From: Streptomyces phaeolivaceus
GTDB lineage: Bacteria; Actinomycetota; Actinomycetes; Streptomycetales; Streptomycetaceae
Assembly (NCBI RefSeq): GCF_009184865.1
Contig: NZ_CP045096.1
Location: 5,704,001-5,768,000, forward strand
Length of the DNA stretch: 64,000 nt
Direction of reading: 5' to 3'
Part shown: positions 17,449 to 36,340 of the stretch, piece by piece
How the letters are laid out: the number at the start of each line of letters is the position of its first letter
How positions within the stretch are numbered: position 1 is the stretch's first letter
The notes under the pieces: generated by a model
Databases searched by the model: none
The model's input: the letters and a program-made list of their open reading frames with translations, nothing else
Told to the model about the DNA's origin: nothing
Position numbers and translations under genes: made by a program

Positions 17449-20115
17449 CTATGGCTCACATTGTGGTGGACGGGGTCCGACCAGGCCGAGATCCGACAGG
17501 ACTTGGTGAGCCAGTTCAAAGGGCTGGTTGCGGGGGCCGTGGGGTACGGAGGTGGCGGATTCGAAGCCGCGCTGTGCGGCGAGGGCTCTGGGGCCTACCA
17601 GTCCGGTGAGCCGGTAATGCCGCCAGAGGGGAATCGGCCGGCGGGCATCGACCACGATGAGGTCGGGCCGACGCCAGACGACCAGCGCCCAGGCTCCTCT
17701 GCCGGAGCCCGAGTCGGCCCAGGCCCCGACGAGGGGCGCATCCTCGGCGGCGCCGACTGCTTCGAGTGCCACCAGCGCGGGGTTGCTGAAGCGGCCGGTG
17801 ACATGGAGCAGGAGTCGTCCGTTGCGATGTACGTCGCGCCCTTTCTCGGCGAGGGACCATACGGCATCGGCGAGGGGATCGTCCTGGACGACGTCCGACG
17901 CGACATCGAGCACGGCGGCTTGGTCGACGGCCGGGCCGAAGGCTGTGTCGAGCAGCGCCGTGTACTCCGCGACGTACGCAGAGTCCACTGCGGGAAGCAG
18001 GTGGCCGACTGCCTGGGAGGCTTCGTTGAAGGCGATGGTCTCCGGTGTGATCTCGTAGCGCGGAGCGTGGCTGCGGAGCACGGCGAGGGCGACTGCGGCG
18101 AGGCTACCGACCTGGGGCTCGATCCGCTCGGGAAGATCGTTTCGGTTCAGTGCGCGGACGGCCCGGGAGAGCAGCGGGAGCCAGTCGGTGTGTGCCGGAG
18201 GCCAAGCGCCAGCCGCGACGGTCCACAGGGTCAGCCGGACGACGAGCATGCGCTCGGGAGGACCCAGGTGGGGAGCGAGGGCGACGAGGCGCTCCACCCA
18301 GCGCCGGTATCTACGGCGGACTTCCTGGTCGGCCTGCCGGAGGTCGGGCAGGGTGGCGGTGCCGCTCGCTTCGGCACCGGCTGCCTCGGGGTCGTGCTCT
18401 GCTGCCACGGCCTCGGCATCGTCATCGTCGAGGGCGGCTTCGATGTCATCGATGAACCGCTCGTCCCAGGAAACGGGCAGCAGGTCCTGAAAGGGCGTGC
18501 TGATGTCGGTGGGCAGGGGGAGCCCCAGCGCGAAGCGCGTGAGCGGATGTCCGACGCGTCCGGCGCATTCGTCCAGATAGCGCTCCCAGCCGTCCTCGTC
18601 GCCGTCCAGCGGGGCCGTCGTGACCGCACCGCCAGTGCTGCTGCTTGCGGATACGCCCGCTGGGGTGGGGGTCAGTCCCGTACGGAGGGTTTCCAGGTCG
18701 CCCAGGAATCGTTCGGCGAGCCGGGGATCCGCGAACAGGTCGGGAGGCCGTGTCGTGGGGGCCTGGGACTGGGCCGGGGTCATTCGGCGCAGGGCACGGT
18801 CAGGGTCGACGACGAACACGATGTTGCCGAAGCTCGGTACGCCGTCGCTGTCGACTACGACCAGGCGCACACGGCTGCCCGCATCGGCCGGAGCCGTCAC
18901 CGTCAGCGTGGCCTGTCCGGGCGGGATGTCGGCGATGCGCTCCCACGCCTCCGGCGGCGCTGCGGCCTGAGACAACTCCAGGTGAGCGGTGTCGGTGAGA
19001 GGCCGGGCCACGCTGATCTCCAGGCCGTCCGGTACGCGTAGGGCCCCGAGCAGCAGCGGCCCACTGCCAGCGATGGGGCGGGGAAGGGGCGGCACTGTGT
19101 GCAGCCGGGCGGCGGGCTCGTCGGTGCCGTCCGGAAGGAGGGTGGCCGTGATGGGGGCGATGATGCCGAGTTCGCAGTTGCCGCCGTCGCTCTGGGAAAG
19201 CAGCAGGGCCGCAGCGGAGAGGTTCGGGCTGCCGGTCAGGGCCCACCGCTGCCCCTCGGAGGCCCACTCGACGAGTTTCCCGTGGCGGTACCGCTGGTCG
19301 TTGTCGCTGATGACGCGTCCGTCGTACTCCTTCACCAGGGCGGCGACCGACGGACCGTCGAGATCGCTGAGTCCGGGCTGGTAGGCGAGGGTGAACTGGC
19401 TCGGACGGAAGCGTTCGAGCAGCCGCCGCAGTGCCATCGAGCGCCGGTCGTAGAAGGGCGCGGACACGGCCAGTTCGTCGACAGGCCCCTGCGGCAGCTG
19501 ATCGATGATCGGGGAACGCAGACTGCTGACGACGCGGACCCGTGGCGCCGTGGGCGTCCTGTCGCGGTGGAGCCGGTCCAGCAGTGCTGCGACCCGACCC
19601 AGCGCCTGTGGCACTCCGGCGGAGAACCTCACCTTTTCCGGGAGGCCGCGCAGCCATGCCGACAGCTCCGAAACTGCGGTGGGACTCTGCTCGCCGTCCA
19701 CCCGCAGAACCGTCCACAGTTCGGCGTTGGCCTGCCAGCCGGCCAGCGTGGTGTTGCCGGAGCCGAGGGCGATGGTGGCGTGCTCCGGTCCGGCGAGGAC
19801 CATCAGCTTGGGATGGAACGCTGCACCCTGGGCGTAGGCCAGACCGGCGAGGTAGCTGCGGCCAGCCCGCCGGACGGATCGGGGATCGTTGCGGGTCATG
19901 GAGACGTCTCCCGCCATCGTGACGCGTGCGCCGGTGGCCTGAGTGACGCCGAGGGCGACCTCCTCGAAGAAGCCGAGATCGGCGGTGAAGCTGAGGAAGA
20001 GCGCTTCTTCCAGACCCCGCCCGCCCGTGCGCTCCTCGTCGAGGATGAGAGTCAGAGGCGAGGCGAACGCGGTCGGTGGCTCCACCACTCCCGATGCCGG
20101 TGCGGTCTCAGTCAA
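17449..20115 (-). CDS. Phospholipase D-like protein with two HKD motifs
   Basis: 888 residues. The N-terminal 320 residues contain two PLD-superfamily active-site motifs: FHPKLMV with GSGN (His101, Lys103) and RHGKLVEW with GSPN (His278, Lys280). The remaining part is mixed: an immunoglobulin-like stretch (about 350-440), a Ser/Thr/Gly-rich linker near 500, then a long helical acidic C-terminal region of unknown fold. PLD-type proteins of this kind are usually nucleases, as in DISARM DrmC or Bfil. The gene overlaps the preceding gene by 8 bases, so both are translated together. No helicase is nearby, unlike the usual PLD defence operons. Confidence 0.85.
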   Translation of the reverse strand: MTETAPASGVVEPPTAFASPLTLILDEERTGGRGLEEALFLSFTADLGFFEEVALGVTQATGARVTMAGDVSMTRNDPRSVRRAGRSYLAGLAYAQGAAFHPKLMVLAGPEHATIALGSGNTTLAGWQANAELWTVLRVDGEQSPTAVSELSAWLRGLPEKVRFSAGVPQALGRVAALLDRLHRDRTPTAPRVRVVSSLRSPIIDQLPQGPVDELAVSAPFYDRRSMALRRLLERFRPSQFTLAYQPGLSDLDGPSVAALVKEYDGRVISDNDQRYRHGKLVEWASEGQRWALTGSPNLSAAALLLSQSDGGNCELGIIAPITATLLPDGTDEPAARLHTVPPLPRPIAGSGPLLLGALRVPDGLEISVARPLTDTAHLELSQAAAPPEAWERIADIPPGQATLTVTAPADAGSRVRLVVVDSDGVPSFGNIVFVVDPDRALRRMTPAQSQAPTTRPPDLFADPRLAERFLGDLETLRTGLTPTPAGVSASSSTGGAVTTAPLDGDEDGWERYLDECAGRVGHPLTRFALGLPLPTDISTPFQDLLPVSWDERFIDDIEAALDDDDAEAVAAEHDPEAAGAEASGTATLPDLRQADQEVRRRYRRWVERLVALAPHLGPPERMLVVRLTLWTVAAGAWPPAHTDWLPLLSRAVRALNRNDLPERIEPQVGSLAAVALAVLRSHAPRYEITPETIAFNEASQAVGHLLPAVDSAYVAEYTALLDTAFGPAVDQAAVLDVASDVVQDDPLADAVWSLAEKGRDVHRNGRLLLHVTGRFSNPALVALEAVGAAEDAPLVGAWADSGSGRGAWALVVWRRPDLIVVDARRPIPLWRHYRLTGLVGPRALAAQRGFESATSVPHGPRNQPFELAHQVLSDLGLVGPRPPQCEP

Positions 20116-21682
20116 CGAGAGCCCTCCCGCTACTGGTCACCGACCAGTGCTGGTCGTGGTAGCGCAGTACCCCACAGGTGGCCAGGACGGTCCCGAGCTG
20201 GTCCAGCCGTAGCCCGACATCACCGCGCCCCTCCTGGCTCGTCCGGTACAGCAGCCCGCCCCGTTCGTGCAGCCGGGTTGGTAACCACAGCGTGCCGTCA
20301 GCACGTCGGCGGGCCTTGGCCAGCGCGATCCTCTGCGACCGCGCTACCAGGTCATAGGTGAGTCGGCGGGCGACATCGCGCAGTTTCATGGGCCGGGCTT
20401 CGTCAAGCCGCCGCTGGACCCATTCCGGGCCGAGTTCGACACCGCGTTGGCCGAGGAACGCGTCCCGGGCCCGACCGGTGAGTTCGTCCACCCGACGGGC
20501 ACTGGCGGCGAGCACTCGCAACTCGGCGACAGGCAAGGGATCACCCGCCGACCGCAGGTCGTGCTCGGCGGGCAACGGCGCTCCGGTCGTGCTCTGCGTC
20601 GCGGGAAGGGAGGACAGGAAGGCGTCCACCGTCATGTCGGGAAGCTCCGCGGCGAAGCGGTCGGCCACTTCCTCGATCGGCACCAGCCCGTCGACCTGCT
20701 CCACGAGCCAGGACCACAGGCGGCGCCACGCTCCGACGGAGTAGTTCCGCAGCACCACTCCGCGCCAGGCCCCGGCCGCGTCGATGCCGCTGGTCACGGG
20801 ATCGGTGGTCAGGAAGTCACCGAAAGCGAGCACATGGCCGATGTCGCGGGTGAAATATCGGACGGGATGTGTGGCGACCACACGAGTCAGAAGCTGAATC
20901 GTCTGTCGCCGTGTTGCCGAGCGGGAGCCTGCTTCGGCCGGTGCACCGGGCTCGCACATGAGGTTCGCCAGCCACGCCCCGTCAGGATGCTCCCCGCCCA
21001 CGCACACGCAGAGCCGGTCCCCGAAAGGGGCGAGATCATCCACGTTCAGCGTGTCCTCGGCAGCCAGATCGAGCAACCCGCCCAGTCCGGCTCGTAGTGC
21101 TGCGGTCTCAAGCCGCGGTCCGGGAACCGGCATGGGCCCTGCACCGAGGATGCCGAGCGCGACCTCGGATCCGGCGTACGGTGCCCAGAACCCCCACGAG
21201 TTGCCCACGTACCCGTTCTTGCCCGGGGCCTCGGCTTCGGACATGGTGACCGTCCCGGAGTGCAGCCGCCGGGCAAGGGCATCGACCCCATGAGCACGCG
21301 GCAGCCACTCCAGAGCCTGCGGATGGTGCGCGAACGACACGGCGGCCAACGCCACTTCCGCGCGGCGCAGCAGAGTCTGGGCGGCCGGGACCGTCAGGTC
21401 TTCCGCATCGGCTTGCGCCGCGACCAGCCCGTGCAGAGCGTAGTAACGCGCGTGCGGGGTCAACGTGGTCACCCCTGGCGCCAGGTGATCGACCATGCGC
21501 CCCACATGCCGCTCCACCGAGAGTGGATAACGGCCCGCGGCGACGTCCAGTCCGGGGCGGCTCCAGCCGGGTCCGTCCACGAGGTCCGGTGTCTGCCCCT
21601 TGCCGCTGACGGTGACCATGCCCTCGGCCATCTCCCGCTGCCACCCCCTTAGCGCTACCCAGCCGGGAAACTGATCCGTCAT
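20108..21682 (-). CDS. Unrecognised 524-aa partner of the PLD-like protein
   Basis: The start at ATG 21682 (MTDQFPGWVALRGWQ) has GAGAG about 11 bases upstream; longer forms up to 22450 run into the divergent gene and are rejected. The protein is soluble and helical. A segment near residues 60-90 reads APGVTTLTPHARYYALHG, which recalls the TxRARYxxF stretch of DUF6361-type proteins, a family also found beside large PLD proteins; the resemblance is weak. The C-terminal 120 residues, rich in Arg and with LYDLVARSQRIALAK-like helices, look like a winged-helix region. It is the first gene of the two-gene minus-strand operon and lies 93 bases from a shared palindrome. Confidence 0.7.
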   Translation of the reverse strand: MTDQFPGWVALRGWQREMAEGMVTVSGKGQTPDLVDGPGWSRPGLDVAAGRYPLSVERHVGRMVDHLAPGVTTLTPHARYYALHGLVAAQADAEDLTVPAAQTLLRRAEVALAAVSFAHHPQALEWLPRAHGVDALARRLHSGTVTMSEAEAPGKNGYVGNSWGFWAPYAGSEVALGILGAGPMPVPGPRLETAALRAGLGGLLDLAAEDTLNVDDLAPFGDRLCVCVGGEHPDGAWLANLMCEPGAPAEAGSRSATRRQTIQLLTRVVATHPVRYFTRDIGHVLAFGDFLTTDPVTSGIDAAGAWRGVVLRNYSVGAWRRLWSWLVEQVDGLVPIEEVADRFAAELPDMTVDAFLSSLPATQSTTGAPLPAEHDLRSAGDPLPVAELRVLAASARRVDELTGRARDAFLGQRGVELGPEWVQRRLDEARPMKLRDVARRLTYDLVARSQRIALAKARRRADGTLWLPTRLHERGGLLYRTSQEGRGDVGLRLDQLGTVLATCGVLRYHDQHWSVTSSGRALVD

Positions 21683-21774
21683 TCTGGCGCATCTCTCGGG
21701 AGGCAGCGGTACTTCGGATGTGAATCGCCTAGCCGGATGAGACAGCCCGATGGGGTGAATATGCATCCATGTCT

Positions 21775-21790
21775 GATAACCATCATTATC
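21775..21790. promoter_or_regulatory. Operator-like palindrome GATAACCATCATTATC
   Basis: GATAA-N6-TTATC, extending to TGATAA-N6-TTATCA, in the middle of the divergent promoter between the PLD operon and the methylase/type I operon. The surrounding 100 bases are unusually AT-rich for this genome. A second copy differing only at three central bases is at 31538-31553, upstream of the SMC-ATPase operon. Confidence 0.65.
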
Positions 21791-21944
21791 AAATGAAGGC
21801 GCACTCGCGTGACCGGGGTCGGCGTATCGTCTTGTGGCGTCGGCGAGAATCCGCTGCAAGCGGAACCGTGACGCAAGACAAGGCCCGGCCTGAGGGCCGA
21901 AGCAGCTGATGTGACGATAGATGAGCGGGGGAGGGATGCGCACC

Positions 21945-24122
21945 GTGATCACTGGTCTGCCGGACCCGGCACTCCGCTCCCCCAGGCCGCTACCTCTCCT
22001 GGTATCGATGTCCGATATCGCGACGTTCGCCCGAGTGAAGCGCCCTGTCGTGTCCACCTGGCGCCGACGCCACCCGGACTTCCCAGCAGCGGTGTCCGAG
22101 AACTCGGGACGCCCCCTGTTCGACGGCGCACAGGTGACGGGCTGGCTGATCGCCTCCGGCCTGGGCAACGCCGCCCCGCAGGAGCTCCGATCCGAGCTGG
22201 CCCTTTTCGGCATCATCGCGCTGCGGGACCGCTTCACGCCGTGGCAGCTGGTCGAGACGCTGGGCAGCCTCCTGTGCCTACGCCGGCTCGGCGGCCGGCC
22301 ACTGGCCGACGACGGCGCGAACGCCTCCCCAATCTCCCCGCCCGACGCCGAAGCGGACGAGGCCCTCTGGTCCGCGCTGCTGCGCCGAGCCGAACGGATC
22401 GACGCCGAGGACGATTTCGTACTCCGCGAGCTTCGCTCGATCGACGCCACGGCGGCCCCGCTCGCCCGCCTCGCCGAGGACCTGGTCGAATCCGCCTACG
22501 ACGAGCGCGGCGCGTACGAGTGGCTGCTCGCCGCCCGCTCCCGGCTCGGACTGGACTCCCTCGCTGCCGACGCGGTCGCCCCGGAGCTGCGGAGTCTGCT
22601 CACCCAGCTCACCGACCTCCGTGTCCGTCTTGAGCGAGGCGAGTCCCTCACCCTCGCCGACCCGCACGCCCGCGCCGGCGACCTGCTCGCCGCGCTCCTC
22701 GACGACACGGAGGACCGCGATCGCGTCACCGTCCTCGCCGCCGACCTCGACGACCGGCTCACCCGCATCACCCGCCGCCGCTTCCTGCTGGCGGGCGTAA
22801 GCGAACTCGACCTGGACGTGCAAACCGGCTCCGACCTGGAGGAACGCTTCGCGGACCCGGACATCGTCGTCACCCAGCTCCCATACCGCCCGGGCGAGGA
22901 CCGCTCGGTACTCGCCGCCCTGACGGAGCTCGAACGCGTCGCCTACCTCCTCCGCCCCGGCTGCACGGCACTCGTCCTCGGACCGGCCGACGCGCTCGTC
23001 GATGAACTGAAGAGCACCGAGGCCGCCCAGCTCCGCTCGGCCCTCCTCCGCGAGAACTTCGTCGAGTCGGTCATCGCGCTTCCCGGCGGGGTCCTTCCCT
23101 TCCGCCCCGGCTACCGTCCCGCGCTGTGGACGCTCAAACGCGGTCCCGTCCGGGAGGCGGAGGGCTTGGTCTTACTGGCCGACATCAGCTCGGAACAGCT
23201 CACGCCGGGTGTGCGCATGCGGCTCGCCGAGGACGTCCTCCTCTGGCGGGCGGAAGGCTTCCGAGGACTCGACGGTCACGACCCGCGCTACGGCCGTGTG
23301 GTCCCCATCGCCGACCTAGACCGGGCCTTCGGCGGTCCCCTAACCCCGCCCGCGCCGCCCGCCTCCGCCATCTGGTCCGACAAGGTCACCGAACGCCCCG
23401 CCCTGATCGCCGAGGCCGAGGCCCGCCTGGAGCGCGCGACGGCGGACACCCGCATGTACGAGGACGAGCGAGGCCCTTACCGAGGGGCCGTAATGCGCAG
23501 GGTCGGTCGCCTGCCCAAGCGCACCACCCTCGGCAAGCTGATCACCGCACGCAGGGTGACACGGCTCCCCGGCCACCGTATCGACGAGAAGCACCTCACC
23601 CTGGAGGGCCACCACACCGTCCTGGGCCCCGAGGAAATCACCGGCGAACGACCTGCGGGCGATCGCCGCATCGACCGCCTGCTGCTGGCGACAGCGTACG
23701 AACGGGCGGCGCTCACCGAGCCCGGTGACGTCGTCTACACCCTCGCGCCCCGTCTCGGCGTGTACGTCGACCACGACGGCTTCTCGGTCGTCGCGTTCCC
23801 GGCCCGCGTGCTCCGCGTCAACGCCGACGCCACCCGGCCGCTCACCCCCCGGGTCCTCGCGGCCCTGCTCGGCGCGGCCCGTGGCACCGCCCGCAGCCCC
23901 AGCGCGGTACGCCCTTCCCGCCGTATCGAGGACTACCAGCTCCCCGACCTCGACCCGGACGAGGTCCTACGCTTCGACGCCCTGCTGGCCGAGACCGAAC
24001 GCAGGGAACGCCTGCTGCGAGCCCAGGGCGACGCCCTCGCCGAGGCCCGCCGCCTTACGATCGCGGGCCTGGCCGACGGCACCCTCACCCTCGGTGAAGC
24101 CCGAACCAACAACCGTACGTAG
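21945..24122 (+). CDS. Degenerate HsdM-like protein with N-terminal helix-turn-helix
   Basis: 725 residues from GTG 21945, chosen because GGAGG lies ten bases upstream; ATG 21921 and 21936 are alternatives. A MerR/excisionase-like helix-turn-helix covers about residues 20-70 (MSDIATFARVKRPVVSTWRRR). The middle has the layout of an N6-adenine methylase, but motif I reads DPHARAGDLL instead of DPxCGxG and motif IV reads TQLPYRP instead of NPPY, so catalysis is doubtful. The C-terminal part (about 500-700) resembles an HsdS-like target region with a coiled coil at the end. It precedes hsdM by 50 bases in the same direction. Comparable proteins accompany restriction loci in actinobacteria; a regulatory or DNA-recognition role is inference. 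Confidence 0.75.
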   Translation: MITGLPDPALRSPRPLPLLVSMSDIATFARVKRPVVSTWRRRHPDFPAAVSENSGRPLFDGAQVTGWLIASGLGNAAPQELRSELALFGIIALRDRFTPWQLVETLGSLLCLRRLGGRPLADDGANASPISPPDAEADEALWSALLRRAERIDAEDDFVLRELRSIDATAAPLARLAEDLVESAYDERGAYEWLLAARSRLGLDSLAADAVAPELRSLLTQLTDLRVRLERGESLTLADPHARAGDLLAALLDDTEDRDRVTVLAADLDDRLTRITRRRFLLAGVSELDLDVQTGSDLEERFADPDIVVTQLPYRPGEDRSVLAALTELERVAYLLRPGCTALVLGPADALVDELKSTEAAQLRSALLRENFVESVIALPGGVLPFRPGYRPALWTLKRGPVREAEGLVLLADISSEQLTPGVRMRLAEDVLLWRAEGFRGLDGHDPRYGRVVPIADLDRAFGGPLTPPAPPASAIWSDKVTERPALIAEAEARLERATADTRMYEDERGPYRGAVMRRVGRLPKRTTLGKLITARRVTRLPGHRIDEKHLTLEGHHTVLGPEEITGERPAGDRRIDRLLLATAYERAALTEPGDVVYTLAPRLGVYVDHDGFSVVAFPARVLRVNADATRPLTPRVLAALLGAARGTARSPSAVRPSRRIEDYQLPDLDPDEVLRFDALLAETERRERLLRAQGDALAEARRLTIAGLADGTLTLGEARTNNRT

Positions 24123-24172: not shown

Positions 24173-25805
<1,633 letters not shown>

Positions 25806-25813
<8 letters not shown>

Positions 25814-27041
25814 CTGGCGTAGCGTCAAGATCGAGGATCTCGCTGCCCCTGGTAAGAACTCTCTGGCTACAGGTCCCTTTGGATCAGCGATTGGTTCCCG
25901 ATTCTTCCGAGAAGAGGGTGTTCCTGTCATTCGAGGGAGCAATCTGAGTCTCAAGGTGGGAGACCGACTGCTTGACGATGAGATCGTCTTCGTGGATGAA
26001 TCCAAGGCTGACGAATTCTCGCGTAGCGTGGCCCGCCAAGGAGATCTGGTATTTACATGCTGGGGCACTGTTGGCCAAATTGGGCTGGTGGACAGCCGTG
26101 CCCGGTTCGACCGCTACATCGTCTCTAACAAACAGATGAAGCTTACTCCGGATCCAAAACACACTGATTCGCTTTTTCTGTACTATGCCCTATCGTCTCC
26201 AGAGGCTGTGGCTCAAGTGCAGGGAGTGGCTATTGGTAGCTCGGTGCCAGGGTTCAACCTGACTCAACTTCGCCAGGTGGTAATTTCCTGTCCGCCACTC
26301 TACGAACAGAAGGCCATCGCTGAAGCGCTCGGGGCGCTAGATGACAAGATCGTGGGCAATGAGCGCATCGCGACTGTGGCTATTGAGCTTGCAGACGCTC
26401 ATTATGCTCGTGCCGTCCGAGAGTTGGATTTCGGGCCCGAGACGTTCGCTTCGACAGCGACCGTTGCCGGCGGAGGGACGCCCAGTACGAAGGTAGAGGG
26501 TTACTGGGGTGGGGAGATCGCTTGGAGCACTCCAACAGACGTAACCGCTCTGACTGCGCCGTATCTCTTTGAAACCGGCAGGACCATCACGGCCAAGGGG
26601 CTGGAGAACTGTGCATCACAGCTTTATCCAGCGCAGTCCATCCTCATGACTTCTCGGGCAACCATTGGGGCTTTTGCTCTGCCGCAGATGCCTGCTGCGG
26701 TAAACCAGGGATTCATCGTTGTGCTGCCGCCAACCGAGGAGCTGCGATGGTGGCTGTTTCATGAAATGCGCTCGCGCGTGGAAGAAATGATCAGCCTGGC
26801 TAACGGGTCGACCTTCCTTGAGCTGAGTCGCAAGAATTTTAAGGCCATGCCGATCCGCCTGGCGAGTGATCAGAACATTGCCGAGTTTGCGCGGGCTGTT
26901 TCACCGCTGCATCGCAGGGCTGCTCAAGCCGCGGCCGAATCGCGCACCCTGGCCACCCTCCGCGACACCCTCCTCCCCCAACTGATGTCCGGCAAGCTCC
27001 GAGTTCGCGACGCCGAGAAGATCGTGGAGGACGCCGTATGA
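25806..27041 (+). CDS. hsdS: Type I restriction-modification specificity subunit
   Basis: 411 residues from GTG 25806 with GGGGAGGA upstream. It has two target recognition domains (about 5-160 and 205-350), each followed by a conserved helix; the first ends in PPLYEQKAIAEALGALDDKI and the second in LATLRDTLLPQLMSGKLRV. Together these set a bipartite DNA target that cannot be read from sequence. The target recognition domains are clearly lower in G+C and use more A/T-ending codons than hsdM and hsdR, a sign of exchange of recognition domains by recombination. It overlaps hsdR by four bases (ATGA). Confidence 0.96.
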
Positions 27042-30000
27042 CCACGGAAAGCGGCAGCGAGTCAACTCACATCCCCGCCCACCTCGACGCCAAAATGACC
27101 GAGTCCACCTGGGAGCACCTCGCCCTCGACGAACTCGCCCAACTCGCCTGGGAAACCAAGCCTGGCAAGGACCTGGCCCCCGGCACCGGCCACCGCCGAG
27201 ACTGGGACGACCTGATCCTCCATGACGAGCTCCAGGCAGCCATCGAGAAGCTGAACCCGGAGCTGACCTCAACCGCCGTCCACGAAGCCCTCCGAATCGC
27301 CACCGACCCTGCCTCCCGCGAGGCGTACCCGGAGAACAAGCAGGCCCACGAGTTCCTGACCACCGGCATTCGCCTCACCTACACCGACGAGTTCGGCGCT
27401 GAGCAGACCCCCACCGTCCGCCTCGTCGACTTCACGGACCCCGACGCGAACAGCTACCTCACCGTCAACCAGGTCACCGTCAGGGACACCGACGGCAGTC
27501 ACCGCCGCTTCGACATCGTCCTGTACGTCAACGGCCTGCCCCTCGCCGTCATCGAGCTGAAGAGCGCCTCCGACGAGAACGCGACCCTCAAGTCGGCTCA
27601 CGCCCAACTCCAGACGTACGTCTCGGAGTTCCCGATCGCGTTCCGCTACAACGTCCTCTGTCTGGTCTCGGACGGCATAACCGCCAAGTACGGCACAGCG
27701 TTCACGCCGTACGAGCACTTCGCCCCCTGGAACGTCGACCACGAGGGCGAGCGCGTCGACACCAACGAGCCCGGCTACGACGGCCTCGACGCACTGAACC
27801 TGGCCCTGCACGGCCTGTTCACGCAGGACCGGTTTCTCTCTCTCACCCGCAACTTCGTCAACTTCCCCCCGCCCAAGCCGGGCGAGCCCCTCTCCGGCAA
27901 GCGCATCGCGAAGCCGCACCAGTACTTCGCGGTGAACAAGGCGGTGGACGCTGTGGTCGAGGCGTCGCGGACGAACGGCCAAGCCGGCGTCGTCTGGCAC
28001 ACGCAAGGCGCGGGAAAGTCGGAGGAGATGGTGGAGACGGCGGCGCTCGTCGCCCGCCACCCGGCCCTCAACAACCCCACCATCGTCGTCATCACCGACC
28101 GCAACGACCTCGACGACCAGCTCTACGACACCTTCCTCGACAGCGAGACCCTGCTCGGGCAGAAGGCTCACCAGATCGACACGCGGGAAGAGCTGCGCAC
28201 CGAGCTGACGCGGCGCAACGTCGGCGGGATCGTCTTCACCACCCTCCAGAAGTTCGGCCTGAGCAAGGAGGAGAAGGACGCCGGCAAGTCCCACCCCCTC
28301 CTCTCCGAGCGCCGCAACATCCTGGTGATCGTCGACGAGGCCCACCGCTCGCACTACGACAGCCTCGACGGCTACGCCCGTCACCTGCGCGACGCCCTGC
28401 CGTACGCCACCCTGCTCGCCTTCACCGGTACGCCGATCTCGAAGGCCGAGGCTGACACCCGTGCCGTCTTCGGCGAGTACATCGACATCTACGACCTGAA
28501 GCGCGCCGTAGACGACGGGGCCACGGTCCGCGTCTTCCACGAGCCGCGTGTCATCAAGGTCGACCTGCCCAAGGGTGTCGACCCGAACACTCTCGACGAG
28601 CAGGCCAACACGCTCACCGAGGGCATGGACGACGCCGAACGCCGCCGCGCCATCCAGTACGCCACGACGATGAACACCATCTACGGCTCCGAGGACCGCA
28701 TAGCGAAGCTCGCCGACGACCTGATCGCCCACTGGGAGCAGCGCCGCGAGCTGGTCAAGCCCGACATCGGCGCCCCCGGCAAGGCGATGATCGTGTGCGC
28801 GACCCGCGAGATCTGCGTACGGGTCTTCGACGCGCTGGCCGAGCGGCGGCCCGGCTGGGTCAGCGACGAGGTCGACAAGGGCGTCATGAAGATCGTCTTC
28901 CACGGCGACCGCTCCGACCCCGAGCACATGCGCAAGCACTCGCTGCGCAAGTCCCAGCAGAAGGTCGTCCAGAAGCGCGCCAAGGACCCCGACGACGAGC
29001 TGGAACTGCTCATCGTCCATTCCATGCTGCTCACCGGCTACGACGCCCCGCCCATCCACACCCTGTACATGGACCGCCCGATGCAGGGTGCCAACCTGAT
29101 GCAGGCGCTCGCCCGCGTCAACCGCCGTTTCCGCGGCAAGCAGGACGGCCTGCTCGTCGGCTACGCGCCGCTCACCGACAACCTCACCAAGGCCCTGCGC
29201 GAGTACTCAGACCAGGACCGCGAGGACCAGACCCTCGGCGCGGACATCGAACGGGCCGTCACCGAGGTCAAGAACGAGCTGGCCACCATCAAGGGGCTGC
29301 TGGCCGGGAGCCGTTGGAAGGAATGGCTTGCCGACACGAGCCGGCCCGACACCCGCAAGCGCGCGCTGCGCCTGACCGCCGACTTCCTGCGCGACCCGAA
29401 GAACCCGGGCAACAAGGTCGAGCCCCCCGCCAAGCCACTCTCCGTCCGCTTCAAGGACAGCGCGGCCCGGCTGGACCGTTTCTACCGTGTCTGTGCGATG
29501 AGCAAGGAGATCGCCGAGCGCTGCGAGGACCTGGACGACTGGCGTCGGGACATCTCGTTCTTCAGCGAGGTCCGGGCCTGGATGATCAAGCTCGACGCCG
29601 CCCAGCGCGAGGCGAGCGGGGAGCCGCTCAGCGCCGAGGTCCAGCGTTACCTGCAGGCCCTCGCGGCCTCGGTCGTCGACGCCGACGAGATCACCGACCT
29701 GTATGCGGAGGCCGGAATCGGCCGGCTGGACATCACCCGCCTCAACGAGGCGCAACTGCGCAATCTGGAGAACTCGGAGACCCCGCACCTGGTCACCGAG
29801 GCCCTGCGCCGCATGATCCAGCAGAAGATGCGCGAGGTGACCAAGCACAACGTCGTCCGCAACGAGAGCTTCACCGAGCGCCTGAACGACCTGATGAAGC
29901 GGTACATGCTCCAGCAGCTCACCAGCGCCCAGGTCATCGCCGAACTCGCCGCCCTGGCGCGGGAGGTGTCGGCGGAGGCCCGCCGCGGCGAGCGGTTCGA

Positions 30001-30304
30001 CCCGCCGCTGACCCACGCCGAGCTGGCTTTCTACGACGCCGTAGCGCACCGTGACATGGCCGAGGTGGTGGAAGGCGGCGATGACACCCTCGCCAAGATC
30101 GCCCGTGCCCTAGTCAAGGACATCCAGAAGAACCTCTCCGTCGACTGGCTCTCCCGTGAGCCCGTCCGTGCGAAGCTCCGTACCCGCATCCGCCGCGTGC
30201 TGGCGATGTTCGACTATCCGCCGGAAGAGGAGCGCGAGGCGATCGACCTGGTCCTCAAGCAGATGGAGATCGTGGCCGCCCTGTGGGCGCCCGCTGCGAA
30301 GTAG
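27038..30304 (+). CDS. hsdR: Type I restriction endonuclease/translocase subunit
   Basis: 1088 residues. The N-terminal nuclease domain has the D...ExK signature in FDIVLYV and AVIELKSAS near residue 173. The SF2 motor follows with Walker A TQGAGKS near 325, DEAH-type box VDEAHRS near 433 and motif VI-like QALARVNRRFRGKQDG near 690; the C-terminal helical part (about 750-1088) binds the methylase core. It cuts unmodified DNA after ATP-driven translocation. All three hsd genes are complete with four- or eight-base overlaps, so the system looks functional. Confidence 0.97.
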   Translation: MTTESGSESTHIPAHLDAKMTESTWEHLALDELAQLAWETKPGKDLAPGTGHRRDWDDLILHDELQAAIEKLNPELTSTAVHEALRIATDPASREAYPENKQAHEFLTTGIRLTYTDEFGAEQTPTVRLVDFTDPDANSYLTVNQVTVRDTDGSHRRFDIVLYVNGLPLAVIELKSASDENATLKSAHAQLQTYVSEFPIAFRYNVLCLVSDGITAKYGTAFTPYEHFAPWNVDHEGERVDTNEPGYDGLDALNLALHGLFTQDRFLSLTRNFVNFPPPKPGEPLSGKRIAKPHQYFAVNKAVDAVVEASRTNGQAGVVWHTQGAGKSEEMVETAALVARHPALNNPTIVVITDRNDLDDQLYDTFLDSETLLGQKAHQIDTREELRTELTRRNVGGIVFTTLQKFGLSKEEKDAGKSHPLLSERRNILVIVDEAHRSHYDSLDGYARHLRDALPYATLLAFTGTPISKAEADTRAVFGEYIDIYDLKRAVDDGATVRVFHEPRVIKVDLPKGVDPNTLDEQANTLTEGMDDAERRRAIQYATTMNTIYGSEDRIAKLADDLIAHWEQRRELVKPDIGAPGKAMIVCATREICVRVFDALAERRPGWVSDEVDKGVMKIVFHGDRSDPEHMRKHSLRKSQQKVVQKRAKDPDDELELLIVHSMLLTGYDAPPIHTLYMDRPMQGANLMQALARVNRRFRGKQDGLLVGYAPLTDNLTKALREYSDQDREDQTLGADIERAVTEVKNELATIKGLLAGSRWKEWLADTSRPDTRKRALRLTADFLRDPKNPGNKVEPPAKPLSVRFKDSAARLDRFYRVCAMSKEIAERCEDLDDWRRDISFFSEVRAWMIKLDAAQREASGEPLSAEVQRYLQALAASVVDADEITDLYAEAGIGRLDITRLNEAQLRNLENSETPHLVTEALRRMIQQKMREVTKHNVVRNESFTERLNDLMKRYMLQQLTSAQVIAELAALAREVSAEARRGERFDPPLTHAELAFYDAVAHRDMAEVVEGGDDTLAKIARALVKDIQKNLSVDWLSREPVRAKLRTRIRRVLAMFDYPPEEEREAIDLVLKQMEIVAALWAPAAK

Positions 30305-30344: not shown

Positions 30345-30731
30345 TCACGGCCACGTGCGCTCAACCCGGTCGTGCCGCACGGCGTAGGCCGCCGGGCCGC
30401 CCTTCTCGACGGCCCGGTGGATGGCGTCACGACGTGCGACGAGACGCTCGACCATCTCAGGGCTTCGAAGCTGCTGGTTGTCCAGGTAGAACAGCACCGC
30501 CTCGCGCTCCAGGACGGGCTGGATCTCAAGATCCCGGGTCTTGATCCGCCCGTCCTTCGACAGCGGGACCCAGGACCGGTCGAGACCGTAAGTGATCCAC
30601 TCCTCGTCCGGAACGTCCTGCCCGTCGTCAGGAAAGACGTCCCCGATGCGGTGAACCGTCCACCCGCAGGCTCTCAGTCCTTCCGCGACACGGCGACCGA
30701 GGTTCCGGTCGAGGAAGAACTCAGGCGGCAA
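30345..30731 (-). CDS. PIN-like toxin of a VapBC-type pair
   Basis: 128 residues. The N-terminus FFLDRNLGRRVAEGLR and the later DEEWI and VPLSKDGRI stretches carry the acidic residues of the short PIN-like (VapC45/DUF5615-like) fold, expected to coordinate a metal for RNA cleavage. Length fits the family. The start overlaps the end of the upstream antitoxin gene by eleven bases. It is the second gene of a two-gene operon, the reverse of many TA pairs only in that the antitoxin is the longer protein. Confidence 0.75.
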   Translation of the reverse strand: MPPEFFLDRNLGRRVAEGLRACGWTVHRIGDVFPDDGQDVPDEEWITYGLDRSWVPLSKDGRIKTRDLEIQPVLEREAVLFYLDNQQLRSPEMVERLVARRDAIHRAVEKGGPAAYAVRHDRVERTWP

Positions 30732-31377
30732 GGTGCACCACGGCCCGGCAGAGCGCGTCCACCTGTGCAGGCGTCATGTCGTAGTCGTACGCGATGTCCT
30801 CGACGGTCTCCCCGGCCTCCCACAGGTCGGTGATGGCCTGGACCGTGACGCGGTTGGCGGCCACCACGGGGAGACCGTGGCCGAACCTCGGATCGATCAC
30901 GACGGGGACGGAGTCCGGGTACTGCCTCAGCCGCAGGCTGGAGGGGAAGTCGTCGCCCGGCTCCCAGGTGAGGTATCGGAGATAGTCGGAGACCACTTCG
31001 TGGATGGGGACCTGGCCGTCGCGGGCTCTGCGGAGGTCTCCCCAACCGTGCTCGATGAAGATGTCCACGCCGTCCGTGGCGATCCGCTTCGACACGAGGC
31101 CATAGGGGGTGTCGAAGGCGTCCCGTACGGCGGCGGCGGCCTCCCTGATCTCGCTCATGCGAAGCCCAAGGGAACGCAGAGAACGAAGGACGTGTGCCTC
31201 GGCCACCGCGATGAACGGCACCGAAGGCTGCCCCCTCCGTACCGGCTCGACCTGGTGGACCAGTGGCGCTCCGGCGGCCTTTCCCTTCAGCCACGAGGTC
31301 ATGGTCGACTGCGGAATCTCAAGGTAGGAGGCGGTCTCTGCGGGCGTCAGCAGCCCGTCGTTGAACCTGTCGACCAT
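30721..31377 (-). CDS. DUF433-type antitoxin with N-terminal helix-turn-helix
   Basis: 218 residues from ATG 31377, which has AGGAGG six bases upstream; the longer frame to 31458 lacks one. Residues 8-40 (LTPAETASYLEIPQSTMTSWLKG) form a MerR-like helix-turn-helix, and the C-terminus (VTVQAITDLWEAGETVEDIAYDYDMTPAQVDALC) is a DUF433 module, both typical of VapB45-like antitoxins. It should bind the PIN-like toxin and repress its own operon; the perfect palindrome at 31428-31441 is a likely operator. Confidence 0.8.
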   Translation of the reverse strand: MVDRFNDGLLTPAETASYLEIPQSTMTSWLKGKAAGAPLVHQVEPVRRGQPSVPFIAVAEAHVLRSLRSLGLRMSEIREAAAAVRDAFDTPYGLVSKRIATDGVDIFIEHGWGDLRRARDGQVPIHEVVSDYLRYLTWEPGDDFPSSLRLRQYPDSVPVVIDPRFGHGLPVVAANRVTVQAITDLWEAGETVEDIAYDYDMTPAQVDALCRAVVHLAA

Positions 31378-31427
31378 GCCCCACCTCCTCTTGGCACCGG
31401 ATTTCGCATCGTGCCACATCAAGCCTC

Positions 31428-31441
31428 CCACCTGCAGGTGG
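31428..31441. promoter_or_regulatory. Palindrome CCACCTGCAGGTGG upstream of antitoxin gene
   Basis: A perfect 14-bp palindrome 51 bases before the antitoxin start codon, in the position expected for an autorepressor operator overlapping the promoter of the toxin-antitoxin operon. Confidence 0.55.
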
Positions 31442-31537
31442 ACCGCACACCCAGTCATCAGCTCAGTCAGCCGCAGTGAGTCGGTCTTTGGCTTGGCAGT
31501 CCCGGCAGCGCGTGGCTCATTTTTGAGCGGAATTCTC

Positions 31538-31693: not shown

Positions 31694-34168
31694 ATGACGG
31701 AACACCCCGCACAGAACGAGCCGAACGCATCCGATCATCAGGTCGATCACCGCCGAGGCTCCTCCTCGACGCTCTCCCGCCTGACCGCCCGCCTCGAAAG
31801 CTCGGCGCTCGCCGAGGCACCCCGGGAACTCCTGCGAGAGGCACTGAGCGCCACCGCGACGGAGTCCTCCGGCACCCCCGCCGCTCCGCACCCGGACCAG
31901 CGGGTGTTCCTCGACTCCATCAGCGTCAACGGCTTTCGCGGCATCGGCCGCAAGGCGCGTCTGCCGCTGACCGCGAAGCCCGGCGTCACCCTCGTCGTGG
32001 GACGTAACGGCTCGGGGAAGTCCAGCTTCGCCGAGGGCGCCGAGACGGCGCTCACGGGCCGGACCGCCCGCCTGGACAAGCAGCGGGGCGAGGTGTGGCG
32101 CCGGCACTGGCGCAACCTGCACGACGGTGCCGACCCGAAGGTCGAGGTCCGCCTCGCCATCGCGGGTGACCCCCGGCTGTCCACTCTGACGTGCACCTGG
32201 CCCGGCGACGATGTCACCGCCCCCGAGGTCGAGTTCAGACGGCCGGGCCATGGCCGTCGGCCCTTCGTCGGCGTCGGTTGGGAGCGGGCTCTGAACGACT
32301 ACAGCCCCTTTCTGTCGTACGCGGATCTCGACAAGGTCCTCAACGGCAGGCCCAGCGAACAGTACGACTCGGTCGCCGCCATCCTCGGACTCCGCGAACT
32401 GACCGACGCGGACGAGCGGCTCCAGGGCATCGAGAAGGCGCTCGACTCCGCGCTGAAGCAGGCCGAGGCTGAACGGCCCGTACTCGCCGAGGCGTTGTCC
32501 GTGCTGGACGACCCGCGGGCGGTACGCGCGCTCGCGGTCGTCGGCAAGGCGGGCGACCCCGACTTCGTCGAGCTCGATGCCCTCGTGACCTCGCTGCCCG
32601 ACGCGGACGAGGGTCGTCTCCGGGAACTGCGGACGACCGCCGCCCTGGCCGGACCGGACCTCGGCGTGGTCGGCGCGGCCGTGGACCGGCTGCGCGAGGC
32701 CGTCGCCGTACTCGACGACGTACGCGCCTCGGGCGCCGAGGACGCCCACCAGCGCGCGGAACTGCTGGCCAAGGCCCTGGAGCACAGCCGTCGGTACGAG
32801 GGCGAGGACACCTGCCCGGTGTGCGGGTCCGACCGGGCGCTCGACGAGGCGTGGGCCGAGCGGGCAGCCGAGCAGGTGGCGACCCTGCGACGGGAGGCCG
32901 CGACCGCGCGGGAGGCCCGCACCGGGCTGCGGGACGCGGTGGACGCTGTCCGCTACCTCGTCACGCCGGTCCCTGCGTGGCTGCCCGCCCCGCTTGTGGA
33001 CCCGTGGGAGGAGTGGCAGGCGTGCCGGGCGATCGACGACGCCGAGCGGCTCGCCGCCCGCGCCGAGACTGCCGCGCTCGTCCTCGCCGACGCCTGCGCC
33101 GCGCTGCGCGAGGAGGCGCTGCGGGAGCTGGAGAAGCTCGATGAGGAGTGGCGTTCCTGTGTCACCCGCCTCGCTGGCTGGCTCGACCGGGCCCGGCCCG
33201 CGTACGCCGGCAGGCCCCGGCTGTGCCAGGTCAGGGCGGCCCGTAAGTGGCTGAAGGAGGCGCGTGCCGAGCTGCGCGAGGAGCGGCTGCGGCCGTTCGA
33301 GGACCACTCGCAGCGGATCTGGGAGGAGCTGCGCCAGCAGAGCTACGTGGACCTGCGTTCCGTGCGCCTGACCGGCAGTGAGAAGGCCACCGTGCGCAAG
33401 CTGGTGATGGACGTGTCCGTCGACGGCACCGAGGCGGCGGCCCTCGGCGTGATGAGCCAGGGCGAACTGCACTCCCTCGCGCTCTCGCTCTTCCTGCCGC
33501 GTGCCGCCGCGCCGGACAGTCCCTTCGGGTTCGTCGTCATCGACGACCCGGTGCAGTCCATGGATCCCGCCAAGGTCCACGGCCTCGCGAAGGTGCTGCA
33601 CGACCTCGGGGAGACCCGGCAGGTCGTGGTCTTCACTCACGACACGCGACTCCAGCGGGCCTTCACCAACCAGGAACTCCCGGTGACCGTACTGGAGGTG
33701 GAGCGGGCGGGCAGGTCCGTGGTGTCCGTGAACCGGGTGACCGATCCGGTCGGTCAGGCACTGGCCGACGCACGCGCTCTCATCCGCACGCGAAACCTCC
33801 CGCCGGTCGCGATGACCCATGTGCTGCCCAGCCTCTGCCGCGCCGTCCTGGAACGGGCCTTCTCCGAGGCCGCGTGGCTGCGGCTGCACCGGGCGGGGGT
33901 GGCCGAACACGAGGCGGAGAAGGCCGTCGCGGGGGCCGTCACGCTGATGGACATCGCCGCCCTGGGGCTCTTCGGAGACCCGACGAAGAGGGCCAGTGAC
34001 GTCTACTGCGAGCTGCGCAGGCGGTGCGGCTCCAAGGCGGTGGACGTTGTCCGGCAGTGCCAGGAGGGCGCCCACCCGTCGGGCACCTCGATGCCGGACC
34101 CCCAGCGGTTCGTGGACGACGTCAAGGCCGTCGCCCTGACGGTACGCAAGCCCGAGGAGGGGCCGTGA
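31694..34168 (+). CDS. SMC/Rad50-like AAA ATPase with zinc hook
   Basis: 824 residues; GGAGGG upstream of the ATG. A disordered N-terminal 70 residues precede the ATP-binding half with the P-loop VVGRNGSGKSSF near 103. The helical middle carries a zinc-hook motif CPVCGSD near 375, and the C-terminal half has the ABC signature SQGELHSLAL, Walker B FVVIDDPVQSMD near 616 and the H-loop FTHD. Such ATPases dimerise on DNA and act as sensors or loaders in several phage-defence systems (family knowledge). A long helical tail (about 700-824) is extra. The stop overlaps the next gene by four bases. Confidence 0.9.
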   Translation: MTEHPAQNEPNASDHQVDHRRGSSSTLSRLTARLESSALAEAPRELLREALSATATESSGTPAAPHPDQRVFLDSISVNGFRGIGRKARLPLTAKPGVTLVVGRNGSGKSSFAEGAETALTGRTARLDKQRGEVWRRHWRNLHDGADPKVEVRLAIAGDPRLSTLTCTWPGDDVTAPEVEFRRPGHGRRPFVGVGWERALNDYSPFLSYADLDKVLNGRPSEQYDSVAAILGLRELTDADERLQGIEKALDSALKQAEAERPVLAEALSVLDDPRAVRALAVVGKAGDPDFVELDALVTSLPDADEGRLRELRTTAALAGPDLGVVGAAVDRLREAVAVLDDVRASGAEDAHQRAELLAKALEHSRRYEGEDTCPVCGSDRALDEAWAERAAEQVATLRREAATAREARTGLRDAVDAVRYLVTPVPAWLPAPLVDPWEEWQACRAIDDAERLAARAETAALVLADACAALREEALRELEKLDEEWRSCVTRLAGWLDRARPAYAGRPRLCQVRAARKWLKEARAELREERLRPFEDHSQRIWEELRQQSYVDLRSVRLTGSEKATVRKLVMDVSVDGTEAAALGVMSQGELHSLALSLFLPRAAAPDSPFGFVVIDDPVQSMDPAKVHGLAKVLHDLGETRQVVVFTHDTRLQRAFTNQELPVTVLEVERAGRSVVSVNRVTDPVGQALADARALIRTRNLPPVAMTHVLPSLCRAVLERAFSEAAWLRLHRAGVAEHEAEKAVAGAVTLMDIAALGLFGDPTKRASDVYCELRRRCGSKAVDVVRQCQEGAHPSGTSMPDPQRFVDDVKAVALTVRKPEEGP

Positions 34169-34545
34169 ACCAGACGATTCGCCAGCTGCTCGACACCGCT
34201 GACCTGCTGCTCACGGACACCGACGAGCCCGCCACGTCCACTGCCGCCACGGCGAGCCGGTGTCGAGGTGCAGCCTTCGCCCTCCGGGTCGCGCTGGAGA
34301 GCGCGGTCGCCGACCGCCTCACCGCCCACCGGGCGCCTCGCGCGATCCGGGAGGGCACCCAGCGGGCCGCGTTCCTCTGGCTCCGCGGTTGCGCCGAAGC
34401 AGGAGCGGCCCGCCGCGCGAAGGCCGTGTGGAGCCAGCTCTGCCTGGGATGCCACTACCACCAGTACGAGATCGGTCCCACGGAGGACCAGGTCCGCGCG
34501 TGGCACACCGAAGTCGCGGCGCTCGTCGCCCTGTTGGCCCACTGA
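34165..34545 (+). CDS. Small helical partner of the SMC-like ATPase
   Basis: 126 residues from GTG 34165, overlapping the previous stop as GTGA. It is helical with an Arg-rich centre and ends in a distinctive stretch LCLGCHYHQYEIGPTEDQVRAWHTEV, of which the CHYH cluster may bind metal or form an active site. I do not recognise the family. Translation coupling to the ATPase implies that the two act together. It could be a HEPN-like or adaptor protein, but there is no clear RxxxxH motif. Confidence 0.7.
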   Translation: MNQTIRQLLDTADLLLTDTDEPATSTAATASRCRGAAFALRVALESAVADRLTAHRAPRAIREGTQRAAFLWLRGCAEAGAARRAKAVWSQLCLGCHYHQYEIGPTEDQVRAWHTEVAALVALLAH

Positions 34546-34654
34546 TCCGCATTGGCCCCAGGAGAGGCACTGCCGGGAGGAGACACGCATGAGAACGAAA
34601 CCACGAGGGCGGTTATCGCCGCCGTCCACAAAGAGCGGAACGAGGAACAGCACC

Positions 34655-36340
34655 ATGACGGCCCGTACGTCCAAGCGAACCCTGTACCGACTCAGGGGTG
34701 TGCCTCCCACTGCCGACGCGATGTTCGACGCCCTGGACGCGGACCAGTTGGAAAGGGTCCACGCGGACTTCGACGTCCCCGAGAACCTCGGTGTACCGGC
34801 GGTCCTGGTCACCGGCAGTTTCGAGCAGCCCGTGGCGAGCTGGTGCGACGAGATCTTCCGTACGACGGGTATCGAGGTGTCACGTCCCGTCAACCGCTCG
34901 GCCGGCCTGCTGATGCTGGCCGTCGACGGTGAGGTGTACGCGATCGGCTACGACCAGGGCTTCCGCCTGGTGCCCGACCGTCTGAAGGACCATCGCTTCG
35001 GGCTGAGTTTCGCGTCCCGCCGGGTGGACCCCGCGAAGATCCGGGACCTGGTGTCGCACACCCCGGGCGGAGGGCGCACCGACATCACCCTGATCCCGAG
35101 CGGGGCCTCGGTGTGGAGCCTGGGCATCGTCGAGCACGCGCAGATCGTACGCCGCCTCGGCGGCCACCTGGACAACATCCCGCTCACCATCTCCCGGGAC
35201 AACCCGGGAAAGATCTCCAGTGCCGAGGGCGGCACCGGCCTGCGTATGCGGCTCGGCGTGGAGGGCGTCGACCTGATCGCCGACATCCGTGCGATCGCCC
35301 GCGTGTTGCGCGAAGAGAAGCCGAGTCCGGAGCTGGAGTTCGTCGAACACGTCGTGCCCGTCGACGATCTCAGCCTTGTCGCCCGTCTGGAGGCCGTCCT
35401 CGACGACCTTCTGGGACAGGAGCCCGACGGGAGAATCAGCGTCGCTGTCCCCGCCGACCGTTGGGACGACTACATGGCCGCCAGAGCGTTCAGGGCCAGG
35501 ATCAACAGCGACGTGGCCGGCCGGTCGACCGACGACTTCGACCTTGAGTACGTCCTCTGCCGAGCGCGCATCCAGCGTGCGGGCCGCCGCGTGGCCGCGC
35601 TCCGGGAGGGAACCGTCACCCTCTATCGGCATGGCCGCGCCGACCGGGCCGACGAAATCTGGACGTCCAGCGCGCTCCGGTGGATCGAGGCGGAGGTGTT
35701 TCTCGACTCCCGCCGGTTCTTCCTGATGGACGAGCACTGGTACGAGATCGACCAGGAGTATCTGAAGGCGATCCGCTCGCACGCCGAGCGGCTGATCACC
35801 GACACCCCGTCCCTCGACTTGCCTCCATGGGTCCTCGGGGAAAAGGAACGCACCTACAACGCGTCCGTGCCGGACCAGCGGCCCGGGTACGTCTGCTTCG
35901 ACCGCGACAACGTACAGACCTCGATGCACCGCGGGAACGGCGTGGAGATCTGCGACCTGCTGAGCCCGGACGATGTCCTGGTCATGGTGAAGCGAGCCAA
36001 GGGCTCCGACGCCCTGAGCCATCTCTTCAGTCAGGCGCTCGTCGCCGTACAGACGCTACGGAACTCCCCGGAGGGCAGGGAACGGTTCGCCGAGAAGGTG
36101 GCGGCGGCCCGGCAAGGGCACGGTCTGCCGGAAGACTTCCGGCCTTCGAAGGTCGTCTTCGCGATCCTGCTGAAGGATGGCACCGACCTCACCGCGGACA
36201 CCCTGTTCCCGTTCTCGCAGGTCACTTTGGTGCAGACGGCGAGGACGCTCGAAACATGGGGCGTCCAGGTCGAGGTCATCGGCATCGCCTCCACTCCGTC
36301 CGCCACCACCTCGACTGGGACTCGGCGGTTGGCGGCGTAG
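34655..36340 (+). CDS. TIGR04141/DUF6119-type protein
   Basis: 561 residues from ATG 34655 (GAGGAA eight bases upstream); ATG 34589, with a better GGAGGAG site, would add 22 basic residues. The N-terminus TLYRLRGVPPTADAMFDAL, the GYDQGFRLVPDR stretch and the C-terminal LSHLFSQALVAVQTL with VVFAILLKDG agree with the sporadically distributed TIGR04141 (DUF6119) family, whose normal length is about 550. The biochemical function is unknown; the family occurs sporadically in defence islands. It follows the ATPase and 126-aa genes by 109 bases in the same direction. Confidence 0.8.
   Translation: MTARTSKRTLYRLRGVPPTADAMFDALDADQLERVHADFDVPENLGVPAVLVTGSFEQPVASWCDEIFRTTGIEVSRPVNRSAGLLMLAVDGEVYAIGYDQGFRLVPDRLKDHRFGLSFASRRVDPAKIRDLVSHTPGGGRTDITLIPSGASVWSLGIVEHAQIVRRLGGHLDNIPLTISRDNPGKISSAEGGTGLRMRLGVEGVDLIADIRAIARVLREEKPSPELEFVEHVVPVDDLSLVARLEAVLDDLLGQEPDGRISVAVPADRWDDYMAARAFRARINSDVAGRSTDDFDLEYVLCRARIQRAGRRVAALREGTVTLYRHGRADRADEIWTSSALRWIEAEVFLDSRRFFLMDEHWYEIDQEYLKAIRSHAERLITDTPSLDLPPWVLGEKERTYNASVPDQRPGYVCFDRDNVQTSMHRGNGVEICDLLSPDDVLVMVKRAKGSDALSHLFSQALVAVQTLRNSPEGRERFAEKVAAARQGHGLPEDFRPSKVVFAILLKDGTDLTADTLFPFSQVTLVQTARTLETWGVQVEVIGIASTPSATTSTGTRRLAA

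Follow-up and report, generated by a model that had tools for sequence, protein, structure and literature searches.

A conserved zinc-hook ATPase gene pair in Streptomyces phaeolivaceus, predicted to be a two-gene variant of the ABC-HEPN theme

Of the described systems in which an ABC ATPase is joined to a HEPN domain, PrrC and RloC are the closest to the locus discussed here. Both nucleases have been assigned to HEPN, and ABC-HEPN fusions often occur in restriction-modification (R-M) neighborhoods, according to PMC3710099; the two share an R-x3-E ... H triad, which in RloC takes the form Arg-x3-Glu-x36-52-His (PMC2610378). Linear DNA and the protein's own ATPase are required to switch on the RloC nuclease, and inducers of double-strand breaks activate it even in R-M mutants, as stated in PMC3874168. 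Here, we analyze a 64,000-nucleotide stretch of the Streptomyces phaeolivaceus genome (10.2 Mb, 2 contigs; G000), namely, positions 5,704,001 to 5,768,000 of contig NZ_CP045096.1, hereafter the window, where an initial annotation had proposed a three-gene defense operon that consists of a zinc-hook SMC-like ATPase, a 126-amino-acid (aa) protein, and a member of the TIGR04141 family. All three genes are real and located where they had been placed, and the first two indeed overlap by four bases. However, the three genes are not conserved as a set. To judge from sequence comparison, the conserved unit is the pair of the ATPase and the small protein (31694-34545), which is near-obligate and translationally coupled, and the predicted effector, which had escaped the initial annotation, is a HEPN-like pair formed by the 126-aa protein and the C-terminal domain of the ATPase.

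The first gene (31694..34168, forward strand; ATG at 31694, stop at 34168) encodes an 824-aa Rad50/RloC-like zinc-hook ABC ATPase, as identified by a Pfam scan and sequence motifs, and its stop shares the bases GTGA with the start of the second gene (34165..34545, forward strand; GTG at 34165, stop at 34545), which encodes the HEPN-like partner of 126 aa that is conserved behind the ATPase. Scanning of species representatives confirmed at least 571 ATPase relatives among at least 592 pattern matches, and the best 80 loci were retained for all counts out of 80 given below. In each of these (80/80), the small gene is located directly downstream of the ATPase gene; a start codon yielding the exact 4-base overlap is available in 58 loci and one yielding a 1-base overlap in 7, these being possible starts, the use of which is not implied. 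The same coupling holds within the host genus. Among 392 genomes (ATPase E<=1e-100, with scoring limited to 2 candidates in each genome; small-gene cut E<=1e-30, with 15 weaker, mostly partial places left out), we identified 55 ATPase places in 53 genomes and 58 intact small-gene places; every ATPase is accompanied by a small gene (55/55), and 55 of the 58 small genes by an ATPase, the three unpaired ones (G605, G146, G708) each being preceded only by a C-terminal remnant of the ATPase. A wider ATPase search of 199 genomes (24 matches at E<=1e-20) provided 24 further regions (L057-L080), in 21 of which a small-gene homologue was found (tblastn, E<=0.01). The surveys overlap in that L092, L101, L119, and L141 are the loci of G032, G136, G100, and G029, respectively. 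Because gene order, overlap, and invariant residues recur in scores of genomes, the pairing is far above chance. No ATPase relatives were found in the phage records searched; two Streptomyces plasmids bear the pair, which is followed there by a gene for a helicase or an AAA ATPase and preceded by one for a DUF6119 protein.

Several observations extend this picture of the pair. In L280, L281, and L282, an intact small gene follows only the C-terminal end of an ATPase, with about 126, 40, and 116 residues matched, respectively. The window genome itself contains a second ATPase-small gene pair (G000:C2:5329330-5331768; L060), with an identity of 58% and an HSDR_N match some 6 kb away.

The assignment of the first protein as a zinc-hook SMC-like ATPase, which the initial annotation had made, is borne out by Pfam matches to SMC_N (50.6 bits, cut-off 40), AAA_23 (42.4, cut-off 27), and AAA_21 (39.9, cut-off 27), and by a search against solved structures in which the sequences matched by the ATPase profile (42 at E<=0.01) were heads of Rad50/SMC proteins and, in a few cases, other ATPases. 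The Walker A motif spans residues 103-110 (G103 and K109 kept in 78/81), the CPVC zinc hook (374-377) lies between the two ATPase halves, and these are followed by the signature MSQGE (587-591), the Walker B/D-loop IDDPVQSMD (616-624; D617 and D618 in 81/81), and the switch histidine H649. The remainder, approximately residues 680-824, is the C-terminal HEPN-like domain, with R716-x3-E720 ... H794. We assessed conservation in 125 distinct pairs, which were drawn from the 80 loci, the window, and a further 73 loci (66 of them used) after removal of identical ATPases; the seven loci left out either have no long ATPase frame (L067, L076-L078) or no small-gene match (L075, L079, L080). Both hook cysteines, 374 and 377, are present in 125/125 pairs, R716 in 125, E720 in 117, and H794 in 123.

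The small protein carries the motif R41-x3-E45 ... C96-H97-Y98-H99, in which R41 is conserved in 124/125 pairs, E or D45 in 125/125, and H97 in 117/125 (75/81), along with W89 in 125/125. Thus, the R-x3-E ... H triplet known from PrrC and RloC is kept in both the small protein and the ATPase C-terminal domain. Family searches with the small protein are nearly silent: it has no match in Pfam, NCBIfam, or PADLOC at E<=0.1; a Pfam scan of 58 small proteins produced 15 stray families, each in at most 3 members (best E 0.017); hmmscan of the same 58 gave no HEPN family match at E<=1; the best solved-structure match, at E 0.12, was discarded; and, among the 120 relatives listed, those with names are called hypothetical or uncharacterized. 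Profile-profile comparison with HHalign (132 C-terminal domains, 138 small proteins, and 22 DUF4145 domains) is more informative. Against DUF4145 (PF13643), the small protein scores 30.6 (probability 66%), compared with a maximum of 18.2 and a mean of 11.6 for the background of 85 windows from neighboring families, assumed unrelated, and with 10.1 and 10.3 for its reversed versions (reversed decoys against DUF4145 range from 9.5 to 13.5); the positive control, the HEPN family PF05168, reaches 35.2 (83%), and RloC-like nuclease domains 18.8. The ATPase C-terminal domain scores 22.9 against DUF4145 (11%; background maximum 19.4, reversed 13.2) and 25.2 against the small protein (19%; reversed 13.0 and 13.6). 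In both DUF4145 alignments, R-x3-E falls over RRTLE, and the conserved histidine falls over that of GAH. The prediction that the small protein is a HEPN domain is, therefore, well supported, and the C-terminal domain of the ATPase is likely to be one as well.

One clade (L115, L116, L118-L120, L127, L232, L233) departs from this pattern in both proteins: E720 is replaced by A, G, or T, with an E at 717, and H97 of the partner becomes K. We considered this covariation (8/8 among the 125 pairs; Fisher test on 81) as statistical proof and rejected it because the tree counts a single change of each residue; the joint change does no more than suggest contact, and would fit a shared site.

Taken together, these features make it somewhat more probable than its negation, in our estimate, that the pair combines a DNA-sensing ATPase of the RloC kind with a HEPN ribonuclease (RNase) that it controls and that is split over two proteins; membership in the RloC family is not claimed. 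Under this scenario, the zinc-hook ATPase dimer would sense DNA ends or breaks, as in RloC, which might originate from degradation of phage or host DNA or from cuts by the neighboring restriction enzyme. ATP-driven movement would then activate the HEPN ribonuclease, and cleavage of transfer RNA (tRNA) or other RNA could halt translation and arrest growth, such that the population would be protected when restriction fails. HEPN enzymes are dimers as a rule, and for this reason the nuclease site probably would be formed jointly by the ATPase C-terminal domain and its small partner. The more specific version, namely, a split RloC relative in which the RNase site is a HEPN heterodimer of the C-terminal domain and the coupled HEPN protein, and which backs up type I and McrBC restriction across the actinobacteria, is a tentative proposal that we consider less likely than not.

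Several findings weigh against this interpretation. The DUF4145 score of the C-terminal domain exceeds the background modestly (22.9 vs 19.4), and, in HHalign comparison with the RloC nuclease profile, this domain scores 12.9, which is at the decoy level (reversed 12.6 and 11.7). The distance between E720 and H794 is 73 residues here, as opposed to 36-52 in RloC. The small protein lacks the conserved arginine of the HEPN Rx4-6H motif, with W89 aligned at this place and an arginine at position 94 in 27/81, and 8 of the 125 pairs have no E720 and carry K97. The pairing has its gaps, too: no small homologue is detectable in L075, where the ATPase match stops at residue 677; L079 and L080, with ATPases that are 27% identical, carry a different coupled small protein; and a relative on a Nitrosospira plasmid (31.5% identical) has no annotated downstream partner. 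Finally, 41/80 loci have neither hsdR nor McrC, and 25 of these belong to a Nocardia-rich group. As to the divergent relatives themselves, the alternative small protein of L079/L080 contains RASDILH (R-x5-H) and shows the same 4-base overlap with the ATPase, and the Nitrosospira plasmid protein (L260, 6001-8454) has R-x3-E in its C-terminal part.

The defense context inferred in the initial annotation holds up. In the window, a type I restriction operon is located a short distance upstream of the pair, with all genes on the forward strand: hsdM (24173..25813), the product of which matches N6_Mtase (357.5 bits) and HsdM_N (99.9 bits) and scores 176.6 bits against TIGR00497, under the cut-off of 242.75; hsdS (25806..27041), the specificity subunit, identified by Pfam and PADLOC; and hsdR (27038..30304), the restriction subunit, identified by Pfam, NCBIfam, and PADLOC. 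Across the 80 loci, each spanning at most 22.5 kb and with hsdR scored by BLASTP to the window HsdR or its cluster, hsdR is nearby in 28, McrC in 11 (a single cluster, the representative of which, L132, scores 188 bits for McrBC), and one or the other in 39. Where the ATPase is at least 54% identical, hsdR is present in 21/23 loci. Given 41 HSDR_N places and 22 for McrBC across 61 whole genomes, we estimate the probability of a chance restriction neighbor within such a span at well under 1%. The loci are not independent, and within the close clade a single hsd operon has been passed down; the identity and orientation of hsdR vary, however, and McrC occurs in another clade, which suggests several separate associations with restriction genes. 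In the Nocardia-rich group (L143-L171, 29 loci), hsdR or McrC is found in 4, and recurrent neighbors include a carboxylesterase and a DUF5691/SWIM protein. Counts for the HsdM-like neighbor cluster 2 were left out, this cluster being chained to the window open reading frame (ORF) 21921-24122, which has no family match. In 12 loci, a large gene directly follows the small gene (cluster 16, median 1162 aa); its representative, the only one scanned, is UvrD-helicase-like (L104, 13109-16597).

Precedent from PrrC (PMC2610378 and PMC3710099) brings to mind a guard arrangement, whereby HsdMSR keeps the pair inactive until the type I enzyme is put out of action by an anti-restriction protein from a phage, and both the position of hsdMSR a short way upstream in the window and the presence of hsdR in 21/23 of the loci with the most similar ATPases are compatible with such an arrangement. 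We nevertheless regard it as unlikely: a different clade has McrC instead (11/80), 41/80 loci have neither, the identity and orientation of hsdR differ among clades, and PrrC is described in PMC2610378 as having no zinc-hook insert. A comparably low probability attaches to the idea that the small protein is a HEPN-fold inhibitor or adaptor, in the manner of an antitoxin, with the RNase residing in the ATPase C-terminal domain. Translational coupling would suit a stoichiometric partner, and the small protein has not kept the Rx4-6H arginine, but retention of R41, E/D45, and H97 in 124, 125, and 117 of the 125 pairs, respectively, is unlike a decayed site, and it is the small protein, rather than the C-terminal domain, that provides the better HEPN match. 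Still less probable is a role outside defense, as a chromosomal DNA-end or repair factor of the SbcC/Rad50 type with a structural partner; the Rad50/SMC similarity of the ATPase and neighbors such as the carboxylesterase and the DUF5691/SWIM protein in the Nocardia group would agree with it, whereas the patchy distribution (53/392 genomes), the occurrence on plasmids, and the enrichment beside restriction genes would not.

The proposal of a single sensor-effector set made up of all three genes, with the TIGR04141 protein as the effector, fares worst, and we consider it highly improbable. The gene in question (34655..36340, forward strand; ATG at 34655, stop at 36340) encodes a 561-aa protein with strong matches to DUF6119 (393.9 bits, cut-off 27) and TIGR04141 (420.5 bits, cut-off 35); it lies on the same strand, 109 bases behind the small gene, and an ORF listing from 34268 overextends it. 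TIGR04141 occupies the same place, just behind the small gene, in 6/80 loci, all close relatives in which ATPase identity is 80% or higher (distant copies were sought by profile, with the same 6 as the outcome), as well as in the window and in 1 of the 24 further regions (L057, from G107), but it is missing from the other 74/80 loci and likewise from L058, the locus of G136, which is 93% identical. A search of 100 genomes for the family (PF19614) identified 14 carriers, the window genome among them, with 13 larger regions examined around the others; an ATPase is found in the flanks in only 2 of the 14 (G000 and G032), so that the neighborhood survey which the initial annotation had suggested shows no general link, 12 of the 14 carriers having no ATPase in the flanks examined. 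Furthermore, TIGR04141 is split over two ORFs in L098, has an internal stop in G049, and persists only as fragments in G025. The co-location with the ATPase does recur, although it is optional: on two plasmids of Streptomyces, a DUF6119 gene is found on the other side of the pair, some 3-5 kb upstream of an ATPase that is 57-58% identical and is accompanied by its small gene.

What TIGR04141 does accompany is restriction. Among 10 carrier genomes of the same genus, 9 have an HSDR_N (G000, G024, G025, G028, G032, G033, G044) or McrBC (G013, G049) match within about 8 kb, the remaining one being G020. The best match in the solved-structure search (E 0.4) was discarded, and the names TIGR04141 and DUF6119 occur in the literature searched in a single mention, in a study of wheat MADS-box genes. 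TIGR04141 by itself appears to be linked to restriction, and, in the window, it is best read as a separate accessory module of the same defense island, an optional neighbor outside the conserved pair.

The surroundings contain additional genes. Between hsdR and the ATPase gene, there is a divergent pair (30345-31458), retained in part of the close clade, of a PIN_10 protein (30345..30731) and a DUF433/HTH_66 protein (30721..31458), both on the reverse strand and identified by Pfam, which are likely to be toxin and antitoxin, respectively. The same region encodes a 1271-aa TPR-CHAT protein (13483-17298, forward strand), and beside hsdM, at 17449-24122, there are ORFs of 888, 780, and 733 aa with no or marginal family matches that partly overlap on opposite strands. 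A promoter and terminator scan returned no promoter-like sites and 1 terminator-like site, compared with 1.5 expected.

If the split-RNase interpretation is true, the RloC principle, in which a HEPN RNase is controlled by a DNA-break sensor, exists also in the form of two proteins, in many cases next to restriction systems. A widespread gene pair that has no name and occurs mainly in actinobacteria (at least 571 ATPase relatives; 53/392 genomes of the genus) would gain a testable function, and TIGR04141/DUF6119 would be recast as an accessory of restriction loci. The pair is not described among the titles and abstract openings listed in our literature search, and an earlier account in the 2020 NAR survey of ABC ATPases is possible.

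It remains to set the pair against the systems that it resembles. DUF4145 is the closest profile tested to the small protein, with R-x3-E and the histidine in the same positions, but none of the 58 small proteins is matched by a HEPN family model in hmmscan at E<=1. The defense system MADS comes up because mad3 is the best PADLOC match of the ATPase (74 bits) and HsdS matches mad5 (110 bits); the NCBIfam MADS models, however, give HsdS 50.2 against a cut-off of 400 and HsdM 49.5 against 720, and the mad3 model has 374 positions, the comparison being made by these models rather than gene by gene. The analogy with Lamassu (LmuB, LmuC, and LmuA), drawn in the initial annotation, is loose. What stands is a short zinc-hook SMC/Rad50-like ATPase encoded together with a small protein, along with a second-best PADLOC match at 6e-18. 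Against it, the gene order here is ATPase then small gene, the Walker B motif is DD (D617 and D618, 81/81) rather than carrying the Glu-to-Gln change that is general for LmuB according to PMC10586767, and no LmuA was found by PADLOC, which reported no family for the small, TIGR04141, PIN_10, and DUF433 proteins and no LmuA among the 11 families of HsdR, with 25 of 122 families listed for HsdS and the presence of LmuA models in the PADLOC library not confirmed.

PrrC with its type Ic partner and the ABC-HEPN fusion groups APECO1_4465 and ERFG_01251 (PMC3710099) share with the pair an ABC ATPase joined to HEPN, often near R-M genes. There, however, HEPN resides in one protein with the ATPase, whereas here a second HEPN-like protein is present; the zinc hook, absent in PrrC, is present; the restriction partner varies or is missing; and the PIN_10/DUF433 pair intervenes between the ATPase-small protein pair and hsdR. 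The APECO1_4465 and ERFG_01251 groups are set apart from the pair by description alone. The resemblance to RloC goes furthest: an ABC head, a CxxC hook between the ATPase halves, a C-terminal R-x3-E ... H, a length of 824 aa compared with 826 aa for the Acinetobacter baylyi RloC (PMC3874168), and a Walker B/D-loop of the form IDDPxxSxD, similar to LDDPMTSLD in L081, three relatives of which are named wobble nucleotide-excising tRNase by JGI (blastn of L081 against plasmids gave no match). In addition to the wider spacing of the triplet and the lack of a direct profile match between the C-terminal domains noted above, the pair differs from RloC in an AAA_13 score of 23.6 bits, under the cut-off of 36, and in its common linkage to restriction, which is rare for RloC according to PMC2610378. 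Above all, RloC is a single self-contained protein, whereas here a second, HEPN-like protein is encoded with the ATPase at every locus of both surveys (80/80, 55/55). The parts, then, are ordinary and their combination is unusual: as far as can be read from the sequences, this is a two-gene form of the ABC-HEPN theme that appears to be new.

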